A stretch of 35,779 nucleotides of DNA from Acidobacteriota bacterium (lineage in GTDB: Bacteria; Acidobacteriota; Vicinamibacteria; Vicinamibacterales; CAVVIG01), in NCBI GenBank assembly GCA_003222535.1, contig QHWJ01000330.1, positions 1 to 35,779 of the forward strand, read 5' to 3'. Each line of letters starts with the position of its first letter. Position 1 is the stretch's first letter. Shown here piece by piece: positions 2,724 to 31,407 of the stretch. The notes beneath the pieces are model-generated. The model was not told the DNA's origin. It did not search any database and saw only the letters and a list, made by a program, of their open reading frames with translations. Both the position numbers and the translations under genes were made by a program.

Positions 2724-3770
2724 GTGGCCAAGCGCTTGACGCAAATGGTCTCCTGCGCCGGTTGAGCGAGCAAACTCGCCGCTGGCGAGCTCGCTCAGGT
2801 GCTGAGTGACATCCCCGCGCAAACCGACGACCGTGTCCTTGTCGACTTCAGGACCGCGGACGATGCGGGTGTCTTCAGGTGGGAGAGCGGACCGGCGCTG
2901 GTGCAGACCGTCGACTTTTTCACGCCGATTGTCGACGACCCTTACGTGTACGGCCAGATTGCCGCGGCGAACGCGGTCAGCGACATATACGCGATGGGTG
3001 GGCGACCGCTGACCGCGCTCGCCATCGGGGCGTTTCCAGCAGAGGGCCTCGATCATGGCACGATCCGCGCGATTTTCCGCGGCGGGTTCGACAAACTGCG
3101 CGAGGCGGGCGTGTCGCTGCTCGGCGGTCATACGGTCCGGGATCAGGAAATCAAGTTCGGATATGCCGTGACCGGCGCGATCGATCCGGCGCGCGTGCTG
3201 TCGAACGCCGGCGCGAAGCCGGGCGACGTCCTCTTCCTCACCAAACCGCTCGGCACCGGCATCATCGGCACGGCGATCAAATTCGATCGCGCGGAGCCCG
3301 CGCTGGCGGAGCAGGCGGTACGTTCCATGAGAACGTTGAACCGCGCAGCGGCGGAAGCGCTGCAGGCGCTGCCAGCCGGCGCCGTCCATGCGTGTACCGA
3401 TATCACCGGCTTTGGCCTTATCGGGCACGCGAGCGAGATGGCGCGGGCAAGCGGTGTCACGGTGTCCATCGACGCGGGACGTGTTCCGCTCTTCGACGGC
3501 GTGCTGGCCATTGCAGGCCGCAACCGGTCCGGGGGGATGGGATCCAACCAGGAGCATTTCGCGAGCGGGGTCAGGGTCGCTCCGGACGTCGACGCCGACC
3601 GGGAGCTGCTGCTGTACGATCCACAGACATCCGGCGGACTGTTAGTTGCGGCCAGCGCCGGCGCGGGGGCCGAGGTCGAGGCGGCGCTCCTCGGGGCGCA
3701 GGTGGCCGTGGCGAAAATCGGCATGGTCGAGTCAGCGACGCCGGGCCATCACATCGTGGTGCGCGCGTGA
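2724..3770 (+). CDS. selD: Selenide, water dikinase SelD, selenocysteine-containing
   Basis: SelD makes selenophosphate from selenide and ATP for selenocysteine and selenouridine synthesis. The frame starts at GTG 2724 behind GGAGGA (2713-2718), reads VAKRLTQMVSCAG, meets TGA at 2763-2765, then continues ASKLAAGELAQVLSDIP to the stop at 3770. Reading UGA as Sec gives 348 residues, the usual SelD length, with Sec14 at the catalytic Cys/Sec position and Lys17 at the conserved lysine three residues on. Downstream are the AIRS-type ATP-binding features: D-rich VDFFTPIVDD, AANAVSDIYAMGG, GGHT, TDITGFGLIGHA and PQTSGGLL. Calling the gene from GTG 2799 would drop the active site. A SECIS-like hairpin follows the UGA. 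No selA, selB or selC lies in the window. Confidence 0.93.
2763..2797 (+). promoter_or_regulatory. Bacterial SECIS hairpin of selD
   Basis: Starting at the UGA itself, TGAGCGAGC (2763-2771) pairs perfectly with GCTCGCTCA (2789-2797). After a 4-nt AAAC bulge an upper stem TCGCC/GGCGA closes a GCT loop (2781-2783) that starts with G. The loop begins 15 nt after the UGA, about the known lower limit for bacterial SECIS elements, which SelB recognises. The hairpin lies within the coding sequence, as is usual in bacteria. Confidence 0.8.
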
Positions 3771-9476: not shown

Positions 9477-9890
9477 GATGAGGAGGACACAGAGAGACGG
9501 GAGATCACGGAGGGAATTGGCCACTGAGACACAGAGACACAGAGTTTTCTCTGGCTCAGTCAAAGAAGATCTCCGTGTCTCAGTGTCTCTATGGCTGATC
9601 TTGTCTGTATCCTCTACGCTCTTAATGACGACACAGAGGAATCAGAGGTCACAGAGAGGGTTGGCCACGGAGACACAGAGACACCGAGTTTTTGTTGGCT
9701 CGGCAAAAGAAGATCTCTGTGTCTCAGTGTCTCTATGGCTGATCTTGTCTGTATCCTCTACGCTCGTAATGACGACACAGAGGAATCAGAGGTCACAGAG
9801 AGGGTTGGCCACGGAGACACAGAGACACCGAGTTTTTGTCGGCTCGGCAAAAGAAGATCTCTGTGTCTCAGTGTCTCTATGGCTGATCTT
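9477..9890 (+). repeat. 144-bp tandem repeat array (CACAGAG family), left part
   Basis: Copies begin with GATCTTGTCTGTATCCTCTA at 9597 and 9741 and the next at 9885, an exact 144-bp period; a diverged first copy fills 9477-9596. Each unit is an imperfect inverted repeat: CACGGAGACACAGAGACACC on one arm, and CTCTGTGTCTCAGTGTCTCT on the other. As 144 is divisible by 3, open frames run through on both strands, but they only spell a repeated 48-residue low-complexity peptide and are not taken as genes. The array resumes after the IS at 11316. Confidence 0.85.
9883..9890. repeat. Target site duplication, left copy
   Basis: CTGATCTT here and at 11316-11323 flank the insertion sequence directly. 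Eight bases is the usual duplication length for IS256-family elements. The exact boundary could shift by one or two bases. Confidence 0.75.
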
Positions 9891-11315
9891 CGGTGATGTC
9901 CTAAACTTCCTGTAAAAGCAAAGAGGCGTTGGTATCCTCCTGGTAACCAACCAGAAGCGGCTCCGTTAGAGCGGGGCCGGAGGAGATCAACGCCATGAAG
10001 AGAGTACCACCGAGTATCCGGTTGAAGGAAGAGATCAACGGGCTGTTGCAGGGCACGGCGTCGACCCCGGCGACGCCGGAGGAACCCCCGATGGTGGGCT
10101 TCGTTGGTCGGCTTGCGCGCTACATGCTGCAGGTGGCTATCGAAGCTGAGGCGACGTCGTTTCTGGGCCGAGAGCACTATCGCCGGGGTGAGCGCCAGCG
10201 CGTCGGGTGGCGCAATGGCTATGAACCGAAACAGGTGCAGAGCGAGGCGGGGCCGCTGGAATTGGCGGTGCCGCAACTGCGCGGGACTGAGGAGCCGTTT
10301 CGACCATCGATGGCCGACCGTCTGCAGACCCGGACGGCGGATCTCGAGAGCTTGGTGCGCGGCATGTATGTTCGCGGGCTGTCCACCCAGGACGTGAGCG
10401 CCCTCTACGCCGACACCTTCGGCGGGGGTCGCATGAGTAAGAGCACGGTCAGTCGGGTGACGCAGCAGCTGAATCAGGATTTCGACACGTGGCGCCGCCG
10501 CGATCTGAGTGGGCTGCGCGTGGTGTATCTGTTTCTCGACGGGCAGTACCATGCGGCGCGCCAGGGGACAGACGAGAAAGAAGGGGTGCTCTCGGCGTAT
10601 GCCCTGTTGGAAGACGGTCGGCCGGTCTTGCTCCACCTCGATATCGGGCCGCGGGAGTCGTACGATGCGTGGCTCAGTTTTCTGCAGGACCTGGTGGGGC
10701 GCGGGCTGTCCGAGCCGTTGCTGATCGTGATGGACGGCGCGCCTGGTCTGGTGAAGGCGGTCAAGCGCGTCTGGCCGCACGCCTATCGTCAGCGCTGCCT
10801 CGCCCACAAGATGCGGAATGTCGTCACGAAGCTGCCGCGGCTGATGCAGTCCAAGATGAAGGGGCTGGTCCAGCAGGTGTTCGGCGCGCCGACGTATGCC
10901 ACCGCGCTGAAGCGCGGGCGCGACCTCATCGCGAAGTTCAAAGACCGTTATCCCGCGGCCATGGAATGCTTGGAGCGGGACCTCGAGGAGTGCATCACCT
11001 ATTTGCGGTTTCCCGAAGCGCATCACACACGCATTCGAACGACCAATCGACTCGAGCGCCTCAACGGGGAAAGCCGTCGGCGCACGAAGGTCATCCCGCG
11101 ATTTCCGACCGAACGTTCGTGTCTGTCGTTGCTCTACGCGAGCTTGATTACTGCGTCCAAGCACTGGCGCGGGATTCCGATGACCGTCGCTGACGTGAAA
11201 CAGTTGCAGCAGCTCCGAGCAGCGATCGCAGTGCCGACCAAGGAGGGTGCAGTTGCGTAATGCTCCGAGGAGGACACCAACGCCTCGCGCTTTTACAGGC
11301 AAATTAGGACTTGAC
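9891..11315 (+). mobile_element. Complete IS256-family insertion sequence, about 1425 bp
   Basis: The terminal inverted repeats are about 28 bp: left GGTGATGTCCTAAACTTCCT... (from 9892), right end at 11289-11316, whose complement reads GGTCAAGTCCTAATTTGCCT. They share the CCTGTAAAAGC inner part. A second matching block (GAGGCGTTGG) lies just inside both ends. One intact transposase fills the interior. The element sits within the 144-bp array, between copies 3 and 4, and is flanked by an 8-bp duplication, which shows insertion by transposition after the array was formed. Confidence 0.9.
9995..11260 (+). CDS. IS256-family transposase
   Basis: 421 residues, full length. It shows the DDE catalytic features of the family: first Asp in VVYLFLDGQYH, second Asp in LLIVMDGAPGL, then the RCLAHKMRNV C/H motif and the catalytic Glu in TTNRLERLNGESRRRTKV. 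An N-terminal DNA-binding region includes RQRVGWRNGYEPK. The ATG at 9995 follows AGGAGA (9981-9986). There are no frameshifts, so the element is potentially active. Confidence 0.95.
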   Translation: MKRVPPSIRLKEEINGLLQGTASTPATPEEPPMVGFVGRLARYMLQVAIEAEATSFLGREHYRRGERQRVGWRNGYEPKQVQSEAGPLELAVPQLRGTEEPFRPSMADRLQTRTADLESLVRGMYVRGLSTQDVSALYADTFGGGRMSKSTVSRVTQQLNQDFDTWRRRDLSGLRVVYLFLDGQYHAARQGTDEKEGVLSAYALLEDGRPVLLHLDIGPRESYDAWLSFLQDLVGRGLSEPLLIVMDGAPGLVKAVKRVWPHAYRQRCLAHKMRNVVTKLPRLMQSKMKGLVQQVFGAPTYATALKRGRDLIAKFKDRYPAAMECLERDLEECITYLRFPEAHHTRIRTTNRLERLNGESRRRTKVIPRFPTERSCLSLLYASLITASKHWRGIPMTVADVKQLQQLRAAIAVPTKEGAVA

Positions 11316-12765: not shown

Positions 12766-12778
12766 CGGAACACAGCAC

Positions 12779-12866
12779 CAAGGACACAAAGGAAACGAAC
12801 GACACAAAGGACACAAAGGAAACGAAGGACACAAAGGGCAGAAAGGGCAGAAAGGGCAGAAAGGGT
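12779..12866 (+). repeat. GACACAAAGG / GCAGAAAGG array
   Basis: About ten purine-rich copies of GACACAAAGGAAACGA, then GGGCAGAAA x3, fill the gap between wzt and the rfaE2-like gene. A frame is open through it in phase with the downstream gene (from ATG 12723), but the peptide [15 protein letters not shown] is a translation of the repeat and probably not made. Confidence 0.75.
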
Positions 12867-28005: not shown

Positions 28006-29532
28006 TTACGCCAGCCCGTCCCGGACGGCTCGCAGCAGGTCGCCAAGCCTGAAGGGCTTTTCGAGCCAGCGACAGCCGCTCTCCTCGAGAAAAGTTTCCG
28101 CATCGGTGCCGGCCACATCGCCAGTGACGAAAATCACGTGCCTCGAGAGGCCGGGTGCGGCGGCCGCGAGCATTCGATAGAACGCTTTCCCATCCATTCG
28201 CGGCATCTTCAGGTCGCAGATCACGAGATCGAAGGCTCGCGCTCCCACTCTGTTCAGCCCTTCCTCGCCGTCGGACGCATGTTCGACGAGGTAGCCCGCA
28301 TCCTGCAGGGCGTCGACCACCGCGTTCGCGAGCTTCGCTTCGTCTTCCACGACGAGAATTGAGGCGCCTGCGACGGCGTCCACCGGCGCCTGCAGTCGCC
28401 CGTGGGCCTCGGGCGCCGGCTGCAGCTTCGTGCCGGTCACCGGCAACTCGACATAAAACGACGCGCCCGCATTCGGCCGGGACTCGAGACGGATACGCCC
28501 GCCGTGCTCCTGGACGATCGCGTACGCGACCGTGAGTCCGAGTCCCGTGCCTTTGCCGACCTCCTTCGTCGTGAAGAACGGGTCGAAGATCTTGGGCTGC
28601 AGGTTGTTGGGAATGCCGGGGCCGTCGTCGTTGATCTCGAGCACGACCGACTCCTGATCGGGGTCGTGCCACGTGCGCACGACCAGAACGCCTCGTCCGT
28701 GGGCCGACAGCATCGCCTGCTCGGCGTTGATGACGAGGTTGAGCAGGACCTGCTGCACCTGATGGCCGTCCGCAAACACGTTGGGGAGGCCCGCGGCCAG
28801 GGCATCGAGCACGGTGATGTTCGTGACGTGCTGTTCGTACGCGCGGAGCGCCAGCGTTTCACGCACTACCCGATTGACGTCGACCATCGCACGCGTCGTC
28901 TGCCGCTTGCGGGCGAACGTCAGCAGATTGCGGACGATGCGGGCGGCGCGCTCGGCTTCGGAGAGGATCGTCTCGAGGCCGCGGCGAACCGGCTCTTCGA
29001 GGGTAGTGCGCTGCGAAAGCCGTTCGGCCCAGCTCAAGATCGTCGCAAGCGGGTTGTTCAGCTCGTGCGCGACCCCGGAGACCGTCTGGCCGAGCGCCGC
29101 CATCTTTTCGGCCTGCAGCAACTGATGATAGATGTCGCGGGTCTCGTCATCGAGCTTCTTCCGCTCGCTGACGTCGCGGACGAGCGCCTCGATGCGGAGG
29201 CCGCTGTCGTCGGTCGGCCGATCGGCGCGCGCCGTCAGCTCGACCCACATGGGGTTCCCGTCGGCGCGGCGGAGCCGCATGAGGTAATCACTGACCGACC
29301 CGTCGGTGGTGAGGCGTTCGAGCAGCGCGACGCGCGCCTGAGGGTCGACGAAGCGCTCCTGAGCGAAGGGGCGCACATCGAGCTCCGGTGATTCGCTCGC
29401 GTAGCCGAAAATCAGCTTCAGGTGGGGGTTGGCGGCGATCGTGGACGTGGCGTCGGGACCGATCGTCCCGATGTACACGCCCTCGTGCACCGCCTCGAAC
29501 AGCCGCGCGAACGCGGCGGCGCGCCTTTCCAT
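28006..29532 (-). CDS. Hybrid sensor histidine kinase (PAS-HisKA-HATPase-REC)
   Basis: 508 residues from this start. The PAS domain (LFEAVHEGVYIGTIGPDATS to VRDVSERKKLDDE) has no membrane segment, so a cytoplasmic sensor is expected. The HisKA H-box is GVAHELNNPLATILSW. The HATPase has N (NLVINAEQAM), G1 (INDDGPGIPNN), F (DPFFTTKEVG) and G2 (GTGLGLTVAYAI). The C-terminal receiver has VVEDEA, DLVICDLKMPRMDG and the LEKPF lysine. ATG 29532 is preferred because the upstream PCYCGC gene, read through its UGA, ends at 29559; ATG 29613 in the same frame would overlap it by 55 bp. Neither start has a clear Shine-Dalgarno sequence. Confidence 0.92.
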   Translation of the reverse strand: MERRAAAFARLFEAVHEGVYIGTIGPDATSTIAANPHLKLIFGYASESPELDVRPFAQERFVDPQARVALLERLTTDGSVSDYLMRLRRADGNPMWVELTARADRPTDDSGLRIEALVRDVSERKKLDDETRDIYHQLLQAEKMAALGQTVSGVAHELNNPLATILSWAERLSQRTTLEEPVRRGLETILSEAERAARIVRNLLTFARKRQTTRAMVDVNRVVRETLALRAYEQHVTNITVLDALAAGLPNVFADGHQVQQVLLNLVINAEQAMLSAHGRGVLVVRTWHDPDQESVVLEINDDGPGIPNNLQPKIFDPFFTTKEVGKGTGLGLTVAYAIVQEHGGRIRLESRPNAGASFYVELPVTGTKLQPAPEAHGRLQAPVDAVAGASILVVEDEAKLANAVVDALQDAGYLVEHASDGEEGLNRVGARAFDLVICDLKMPRMDGKAFYRMLAAAAPGLSRHVIFVTGDVAGTDAETFLEESGCRWLEKPFRLGDLLRAVRDGLA

Positions 29533-29558
29533 GCCCGGATGAAGAGGCGGACCGGCGT

Positions 29559-30173
29559 CTATTTCGCCGGCGGCCGGGGCGTCGGCGTATGTGTCGGGAA
29601 GCCGCTGCTCCATTTCTTTTCGTTCGCGGCCCTGATGTCGCGCACGGAAGCGCCGGAAGCATGCATTTGCATCGCGTCACGCGCGACGTCAATACACACG
29701 GCTCATGTCATGCCATGCGGTTCCCACTGGGTCACGTCGCCGTTCGCGTCGCGAGCCGTGACGAAGCAATCTTCGTTACCACGATGGCCGCTCCGCTCGC
29801 ACCCGCAGTAGCACGGCACGTAGCTGAGCACCTCGGGATGTTCCGCGGCGAACGTGTACGCCGCGCGTACGATCTCCATGGGTCGCGCCGGCGGCGACGG
29901 ATCGAAGGGCAGCGGCGGAAGATTCGCCTGCGGGTGCGGGCCGAGCACGGCGGCGGCGGGCGGGTCGACGATCGTCTGCGACAGCGTGGGCGCCGACGGA
30001 GCAGCCTGGTTCTGCTGCGCCGTTCTCGCGTAGACGAAGACGCCGACGATGACGAGCGCGGCGATGGCAACACCGAGCAATGGTGTGAAGGAGCGGCCCG
30101 GCTCGGACGGCGGTGTCGTCGGAGAGCCAGGGCGCGACTGGGCTTTGGCGGAAGATTTTCTACCCATGTGCAT
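29559..30173 (-). CDS. PCYCGC-family membrane-anchored protein, probable selenoprotein
   Basis: Read to the first UGA it is 156 residues and ends abruptly at WEPHGMT. Reading that UGA (29703-29705) as Sec157 extends the frame by AVCIDVARDAMQMHASGASV then RDIRAANEKKW and a proline-rich tail to TAG at 29559, 203 residues in all. Visible parts are a basic N-terminus, one membrane segment (about 31-48), a proline-rich linker, PCYCGC at 120-125, Cys136, then HGMT-U-AVC, giving a UxxC motif. As I recall the PCYCGC family, homologues carry Cys at this point; this should be checked. The domain would face the periplasm. Thiol/selenol redox or metal handling is plausible, but the function is unknown. 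Confidence 0.85.
29668..29705 (-). promoter_or_regulatory. Bacterial SECIS hairpin of the PCYCGC selenoprotein gene
   Basis: On the minus strand, six bases after the UGA (29703-29705), UGUAUUG (29690-29696) pairs over 7 bp with CGAUGCA (29668-29674, two G-U pairs). After a single bulged A, CGUC pairs with GACG and closes a GCGCGU loop (29679-29684) that starts with G. The loop starts 18 nt after the UGA, inside the 16-37 nt window known for bacterial SECIS. The hairpin lies in coding sequence. Confidence 0.75.
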
Positions 30174-30219: not shown

Positions 30220-31407
30220 ATGAATCTGATGGCCAGGCAGGACCGAGTACTGCTCGGCGGCCTGGCCGTCGCTCTGTTCGTCGTGTTTGCGAGGCCGATT
30301 CGCTACCTTCTCGATCTGGCGCGCGCCGTCGAAGAGAGCTCCGGGCTCGCCCTCGTGCCGGCGCTCATCATTCTGACCGCCGTGTTCCTGTTTCATCAGC
30401 AGGGCAAGCGGCACGAAGCGAAGGCGCGGGCGGCGGCGGCTCGGGCCGACGCCATTCAGTCGGAAGCGCGCGCGCTCGAAATGGAGCGGCTCGTCACCTT
30501 TGGGCAGGGCCTCGGCCGCGCGCTGGAGATGGAAACCATCCGCGACGTCGTCCTGCACGACCTGCCCAGGCTGGCGGGCACCGACCAGGCATGGGTGCTC
30601 CTGTGGGAGGACGGACATTGGAAGCCGCTCGTGGGCACGGCGAGCGAGAGCCGCGAGGTCGAACGCGCACGCGAGCACCTCGCCGATCGCGCGCTGCTCG
30701 GCGGATCCTGGACGTCGGACGCGATTGCCACAGAAGGTCACCTGTGTCTGCCGCTGATGGCAGGCGGCCATCCGGTGGGCGTGCTCGGCATTCCCGATTC
30801 CGCGGGACCCTTCGGCCGCCAGCGCGTCCTGGCGATGGCGGCGGCGCTCCTGTCGATTTCTCTGCGTAACGCCCAGCTCTTCCACAATCTGCGCGAGTAC
30901 AGCTTGCGCGACGGTCTGACCGGCTGCTTCAACCGGACGCACGCGCTCGAGGGCGTCGACACGGAGCTGCGGCGCGCGCGCCGCTCGCACCTGCCCGTGT
31001 CGCTCATCATGTTCGACATCGATCATTTCAAGGACATCAACGATCGCTACGGGCATTTGTGCGGCGACGCGGTGCTGGCGGCCGTCGGCGCGCGGATGCG
31101 CGAGGGTCTGCGTGGCAGCGACCTGAAGTGCCGCTACGGCGGCGAAGAGTTCCTCGTCCTCCTGCCCGAGACGCCTCTCGAAGGTGCCAAGCGCGTCGCC
31201 GAGACGCTGCGTCGCGAGCTCGCGGACGTGCCAATCAACTGGAAGGGCGAGACGGTGGCCGTCACGGCCAGCTTCGGCGTCTCGGTCGCGCTGCCGACCG
31301 AGATCGATGGCCAGGCGCTCATCGGCCGGGCCGACGCGGCGCTGTACCGCGCGAAGGAACAGGGACGCAACTGCGTTCGCCTGACGATCGAGCCGGCCGT
31401 CGCGTAG
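30220..31407 (+). CDS. Membrane-bound GAF-GGDEF diguanylate cyclase
   Basis: 395 residues. Two hydrophobic segments lie at about 10-25 and 43-58, then a coiled coil (about 61-95), a GAF-like domain (about 95-222) and a GGDEF domain (about 225-390). The active site is intact: GGEEF at 307-311, with FDIDHFKDINDRYGH for metal and GTP binding. RGSD at 298-301 is the RxxD inhibitory site, five residues before GGEEF, so product feedback by c-di-GMP is expected. It is divergent from the PCYCGC gene, with 46 bp between. Confidence 0.93.
   Translation: MNLMARQDRVLLGGLAVALFVVFARPIRYLLDLARAVEESSGLALVPALIILTAVFLFHQQGKRHEAKARAAAARADAIQSEARALEMERLVTFGQGLGRALEMETIRDVVLHDLPRLAGTDQAWVLLWEDGHWKPLVGTASESREVERAREHLADRALLGGSWTSDAIATEGHLCLPLMAGGHPVGVLGIPDSAGPFGRQRVLAMAAALLSISLRNAQLFHNLREYSLRDGLTGCFNRTHALEGVDTELRRARRSHLPVSLIMFDIDHFKDINDRYGHLCGDAVLAAVGARMREGLRGSDLKCRYGGEEFLVLLPETPLEGAKRVAETLRRELADVPINWKGETVAVTASFGVSVALPTEIDGQALIGRADAALYRAKEQGRNCVRLTIEPAVA

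Follow-up and report, generated by a model that had tools for sequence, protein, structure and literature searches.

An acidobacterial PCYCGC-family (PF13798) gene with an in-frame UGA, a probable selenoprotein with a UxxC motif

The window, by which we mean the whole stretch of 35,779 nucleotides that was analysed, belongs to a draft genome of 8.06 Mb in 450 contigs. On its minus strand lies a gene that begins with an ATG at 30173, meets a TGA at 29705-29703 directly after the residues HGMT (codon 157) and stays open in the same frame to a TAG at 29561-29559 (codon 205), just as the first-pass annotation of this DNA had described. That annotation's assignment of the product to the PCYCGC family also holds: the PF13798 match covers residues 100-201, runs across the UGA and scores 96.3 bits (E 2.1e-27) against a Pfam gathering score of 25 bits, and the PCYCGC motif itself is present at residues 120-125. 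When the whole genome was searched in six frames, PF13798 turned up as a single copy, with one TGA inside. Default annotation would truncate the PF13798 gene before its UxxC motif, and the reading given here corrects the gene. The features discussed below are collected in Table 1.

Table 1. Positions in the window of the predicted selenoprotein gene, its parts and related features.
Feature	Position	Strand	Basis and remarks
PCYCGC (PF13798) gene, predicted selenoprotein	29559..30173	minus	204 aa + TAG stop, UGA codon 157 as probable Sec
In-frame UGA (predicted Sec157), UxxC motif U157-A-V-C160	29703..29705	minus	column Cys or UGA, 77/77 sequences
PCYCGC motif, residues 120-125 (Cys121, Cys123, Cys125)	29799..29816	minus	sequence; invariant in 40 aligned
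Predicted N-terminal hydrophobic helix, residues 33-53	30015..30077	minus	AF2
SECIS-like hairpin	29659..29699	minus	fold z -2.68; covariation; codon-level conservation
Histidine kinase, downstream	28006..29613	minus	HisKA-HATPase-REC; PAS below Pfam cut-off; start may be in-frame ATG 29532
GGDEF diguanylate cyclase, divergent, upstream	30220..31407	plus	Pfam; synteny partly conserved
selD (presumed), selenophosphate synthetase	2724..3770	plus	in-frame UGA 2763-2765 (SCAG-U-ASK), AIRS domains (Pfam); start codon approximate

Elsewhere in the window, a tandem array at 9517-9890 (144-bp units, 2.6 copies, 95% matches) is crossed by spurious ORFs and lies just upstream of ORF 9995-11260, which we take to be transposase-like. 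A short 9/27-bp tandem repeat at 12776-12864 is CACAAAGGA-like, and the ORFs that run through it carry a TKDTKE-like low-complexity stretch. No tRNA gene was found in the window, and an Rfam scan of it returned no match at gathering scores.

The identity of codon 157 was judged from relatives of the protein. At the column of the UGA, all 77 sequences (the window's and 76 relatives, which are not all independent, several loci being one genome retrieved twice) have either Cys (45 sequences; 41 TGC and 4 TGT) or TGA (32); the pattern by which they were read required Cys or U as the first and as the last residue of the CxxC and could not show another residue, and no locus among the 77 failed it. 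The first-pass proposal to look for Cys at residue 157 is answered by this column. None of the 77 ends at HGMT with TAA, TAG or another stop. In a larger set, 117 of 135 sequences were parsed, with 84 distinct sequences (40 UGA, 44 Cys). By eye, the 18 unparsed ones include UGA in L158 and L121 and Cys in L066, L080, L120, L128 and L130; still outside the counts are L122, L123, L126 and L162-L165, whose motif was unreadable, together with L124, L125, L127 and L131. In L126 and L162-L165, which match PF13798 weakly, there is a TGA whose position could not be placed. L120 has Cys at the Sec column and has lost the second Cys of the CxxC (TCPVGPD).

Across the acidobacterial order, PF13798 was found in 90 of 162 genomes, and the in-frame stops listed were all TGA. 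Such a TGA occurs in 37 of the 90 PF13798-bearing genomes, and in the 36 that were read (G121 left out) it always stands at the Sec column. An alignment of 40 members shows Cys121, Cys123, Cys125, His130, Cys136, residue 157 and Cys160 to be invariant and His153 nearly so, and beyond the UGA the C-terminal tail is kept whether the form has Sec or Cys, including the invariant Cys160 and a T-x-T near the end. The in-frame UGA is aligned to the Cys of homologues within a conserved flank, as expected of a bacterial selenoprotein.

Downstream of the UGA lies a hairpin with a 9-bp lower stem (29699-29691/29667-29659), a 7-bp upper stem (29688-29682/29676-29670) and a 5-nt loop, CGUGA (29681-29677), which begins 21 nt after the UGA. 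Its folding energy is -20.6 kcal/mol, and 1 of 200 shuffles was as stable. The bacterial SECIS model summarised in the Fig. 2A legend of a 2026 review has an apical loop of 3-9 nt and an upper stem of 4-16 bp (PMC13188914), and the same source places a G in the first two loop positions, a distance of 16-37 nt from the UGA and a minimum free energy of <= -7.5 kcal/mol; the window hairpin lies within this model in loop, upper stem, distance and energy. The first-pass annotation was thus right that a SECIS-like hairpin follows the UGA, and wrong about its geometry (loop of 6 nt with G as first base, 18 nt from the UGA). That 6-nt-loop register was rejected, since among 36 sequences its core has no compensatory changes and some distant members disrupt it.

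Stability as proof of a SECIS was also rejected, since UGA and Cys sequences are equally stable: the mean energy of the best hairpin is -13.6 kcal/mol in 25 distinct UGA sequences and -14.0 kcal/mol in 38 distinct Cys sequences. Because stability fails to separate the two groups, the case for a SECIS rests on conservation and covariation. The core is a stem UCGCG/CGCGA closed by the loop CGUGA, and this 15-nt stretch, GTCGCGCGTGACGCG, is shared without a mismatch by 31 of the 32 distinct acidobacterial UGA forms and by none of 37 Cys forms. These counts omit the unparsed loci and all rows from outside the Acidobacteria (adding L158 and L121 gives 31 exact cores in 34), and they take as acidobacterial, by their sequence neighbours, three of loci L010-L049 that bear other titles (L015 Cyanobacteria, L018 Acidimicrobiia and L047 Deltaproteobacteria). 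At the codon level, codons 6-10 after the UGA (VARDA) read GTC GCG CGT GAC GCG in 31 of the 32, with CGG for CGT in the remaining one, and the exact core is absent from all six Cys forms whose codons also spell VARDA. At most neighbouring codons the synonymous positions vary, in the UGA and the Cys group alike. Judged by the codon usage of ten genes of the window, in which CGT makes up 7% of Arg codons, such a core would be expected in about 0.8% (0.008) of cases per sequence, a chance figure that treats codons as independent and ignores relatedness. A genome-wide search for the identical core at this distance from a TGA gave a single match, the present gene.

Compensatory changes that keep the loop are seen in Bacillales (UAGCC-CGUGA-GGCUA) and at locus L158 (UCACC-CGUGA-GGUGA), and L121, a more distant UGA form, has part of the hairpin only, with the loop CUGGA. 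In the comparison of 36 sequences, pairing holds in 97.7% of cells, and half of the six pairs (three) are changed on both sides. For four of five measures, none or one of 500 shuffles scored as high (both-side changes 1/500, covariation score 0/500); the fifth, further pair types, was ordinary (170/500). RNAalifold recovers the same five-pair stem.

These results bear on the simplest alternative, that the UGA is a true stop everywhere, the last 48 codons an unrelated overlap or decaying tail and the hairpin there by chance. UGA is indeed an ordinary stop in this genome, ending 4 of the 14 window genes checked, and the stability of the hairpin is by itself not special. Yet a tail kept in Sec and Cys forms across the 40 aligned members, a column that holds just Cys or UGA, and a hairpin conserved codon by codon with covarying pairs are hard to reconcile with termination, and we consider this alternative extremely improbable.

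Selenocysteine insertion further depends on its machinery, for which the first-pass annotation had proposed searching. The genome has a tRNA-Sec gene (selC; 58.5 bits, anticodon TCA) and selA (531.5 bits). It also has the gene that we take to be selD, a name that comes from family knowledge and from the first-pass annotation; as the latter had claimed, selD is there, within the window and with an in-frame UGA of its own. Sec-containing SelD is a known kind, and because of this UGA default annotation would place the start too far in, at an internal codon. The sequence that follows the selD UGA has a fold z of -1.46. The residues around that UGA match the UxxK motif listed for SelD in the 2026 review (PMC13188914).

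The third gene of that search, selB, is present at C90:12378-14331 but divided between two frames; compared with relatives, a stretch of about 120 nt is absent from its middle. The frameshift in this draft may be real decay or an assembly fault. The genome of Bacillus piscicola, a named isolate, carries the UGA form together with a full-length selB. In the genomes behind related UGA loci, selB scores over the cut-off in six of seven, and across the PF13798 genomes of the acidobacterial order it does so in 30 of 37 that carry UGA versus 29 of 53 with Cys only (one-sided Fisher p 0.008, kinship ignored; the underlying selB list holds 113 genomes against 114 tallied, the odd one lying outside the rows listed). 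Seven of the 37 UGA genomes, the window's included, lack selB over the cut-off. It is conceivable, then, that Sec decoding is being lost in this organism, with selB a pseudogene and the UGA ending a 156-residue protein while relatives keep the Sec form, and the two frames and missing stretch of selB are what such a loss would leave. We think this unlikely: the genome retains tRNA-Sec, selA, the UGA of selD, the UGA at codon 157 and an undamaged SECIS core, the matched parts of selB on either side of the gap hold no stop, and a collapsed stretch is plausible in a draft of 450 contigs.

Taken by comparison, the locus is very probably a real selenoprotein gene and a well-supported member of a known predicted family. 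The first-pass proposal of a selenoprotein with UxxC is supported by the Cys/UGA column, by the conservation and covariation of the SECIS and, with selB frameshifted in this draft, by the Sec machinery. A tree built from 83 distinct protein sequences, 39 with Sec and 44 with Cys, implies at least nine changes between Sec and Cys; many of its forks are open because the alignment has just 121 columns, and the well-supported branches alone force three. Sec forms occur also in Bacillales and Chloroflexi. In one genome of the Bacillus piscicola family (G524; loci L133, L135 and L136) PF13798 is present three times, twice with UGA and once with Cys. The close Cys counterparts allow Sec and Cys to be compared within the same protein.

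The AlphaFold model contains a confident domain of 119 residues (mean pLDDT 95.7), in which residue 157 stands just before helix 158-172 and the UxxC lies at the helix start. The hydrophobic helix at residues 33-53 is, judging from the sequence, likely a membrane anchor with the C-terminal domain outside. Foldseek searches with the whole model and with the 119-residue domain gave no match at E <= 0.001 (all E > 1), and a profile search of PDB sequences gave no match up to E 10. Among the weak structural matches a designed protein ranks first (Z 5.6), followed by two CcmH structures, 2hl7 (Z 4.4; 75 residues, 3.4 A) and 2kw0 (Z 4.1; 74 residues, 3.6 A), and a Z below 8 may reflect just a common helix arrangement. 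Because no solved or characterised relative was found, we infer the role from the motif, which makes a periplasmic selenol/thiol redox function most likely.

The CcmH ranks raise the question of whether we are dealing with a diverged thiol-disulfide protein of the CcmH kind (cytochrome c maturation type) that would use Sec on thiol substrates. In line with this, hhalign against acidobacterial CcmH-like proteins aligned residues 157-190 with E 8.6e-4 and a probability of 23.5%, versus 0.024 and 0.031 for reversed controls, but the pair was picked because of the structural hint and the aligned part excludes the PCYCGC motif. A C-x-CGC motif in two CcmH-like proteins points the same way. CcmH is, however, absent from the 18 families matched in a Pfam scan of the 40 members up to E 10, the Foldseek values are all above 1, and low Z-scores headed by a designed protein can arise from shared helix arrangement. 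We hold this identity to be doubtful, and treat the CcmH-like fold as a weak lead rather than a relation. The two motifs are ICPCGC and ICQCGC, in the acidobacterial CcmH-like proteins L193 and L185 (1501 onwards), and are reminiscent of PCYCGC.

Gene order offers a second view of function. A match to the window's histidine kinase lies downstream in the same direction at all 40 loci L010-L049 (intervening genes are possible), followed by a sigma-factor match in 36 of them, the contigs of the other four ending first; from this order, the PF13798 gene and the kinase are probably cotranscribed. At the six distant loci L050-L055 no match to the kinase was found, and the ten neighbour proteins scanned at L051-L055 show no common theme (transporter, peptidase, acetyltransferase, hydrolase, multihaem cytochrome, HisRS and others, two of them without a family). 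With six conserved Cys/Sec residues, a conserved His and this constant neighbour, the protein could serve the kinase mainly by binding or sensing metal and not be a redox enzyme. We regard this as rather unlikely: the kinase has a weak PAS match ahead of its core and no known extracytoplasmic sensor domain in Pfam, the association is missing from the distant loci, and the shared order may reflect common descent and not function. A more elaborate scheme, in which a CcmH-like extracytoplasmic selenol/thiol redox protein, switched many times between Sec and Cys in one acidobacterial order, signals redox or selenium to the co-encoded histidine kinase and selenium-dependent UGA readthrough (full-length versus truncated product) serves as the switch, seems to us quite improbable.

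The locus very probably encodes a membrane-anchored, extracytoplasmic PF13798 protein in which UGA157 is decoded as Sec by means of the SECIS, likely a selenol/thiol redox protein. SelA, SelB, SelD and tRNA-Sec would read codon 157 as selenocysteine, and the hairpin just 3' of it would direct the insertion. The product would bring together the three Cys of PCYCGC, the invariant Cys136, His130 and Sec157-x-x-Cys160 before a helix. In such a protein the UxxC would form the reactive pair, and the PCYCGC cluster may supply resolving or relay thiols or a metal site. Between lineages, Sec and Cys replace each other at codon 157.

The first-pass annotation knew of no described selenoprotein of this family and took the gene for a new redox or metal-binding selenoprotein class. 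The CYCXC/OS_HP4 family, whose original description is reportedly that of Zhang and Gladyshev in 2007, is named for a marine symbiont consortium. Table 1 of the 2026 review lists a "CYCXC family protein (hypothetical protein OS_HP4)" with PF13798 and UxxC as a high-confidence predicted selenoprotein (PMC13188914), and OS_HP4 is also listed with UxxC in PMC9312934. Both first-pass claims fail on this listing, and NCBIfam has the family as NF041379, "CYCXC family (seleno)protein" (OS_HP4 equivalog). Each of the 40 members in the alignment hits NF041379 at E <= 0.001; the window protein scores 66.9 bits, below the curated cut-off of 90, and is therefore placed as a PF13798 relative rather than an NF041379 equivalog. 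It has the features of the CYCXC/OS_HP4 row, namely PF13798, one Sec (predicted), U157-A-V-C160 and homologues with Cys (PMC13188914). Our search of a limited literature library found no description of an acidobacterial Sec form of PF13798. The Sec form is common in one acidobacterial order and is not confined to the marine symbiont consortium. What is added to the known family is its wide occurrence within one order, recurrent swaps between Sec and Cys, a SECIS supported by covariation and a conserved histidine-kinase neighbour, and the kinase together with the redox motif gives testable handles on the family's function.

Among known systems, the periplasmic domain of CcmH (PF03918; 2hl7, 2kw0) possibly shares a helix arrangement with the window protein over most of the CcmH chain and has a weak profile match to its residues 157-190, but there is no significant sequence match, and the window protein has an extra insert, PCYCGC and UxxC. 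The PCYCGC lipoproteins of Bacillales, such as AOT13_14730 of Parageobacillus thermoglucosidasius, share PF13798 and conserved Cys beyond the motif (PMC13068155). AOT13_14730 is a Cys-containing lipoprotein without assigned function that adjoins a gene for an Fe3+ substrate-binding protein, and the passages on it in that source do not mention Sec (PMC13068155). The window form probably has Sec and lies beside a kinase. Closest is CYCXC/OS_HP4, compared here through the NF041379 profile and the table row: it has the same Pfam domain and the same UxxC with Sec in the first position, and the window form differs in being acidobacterial and in adjoining a histidine kinase gene.
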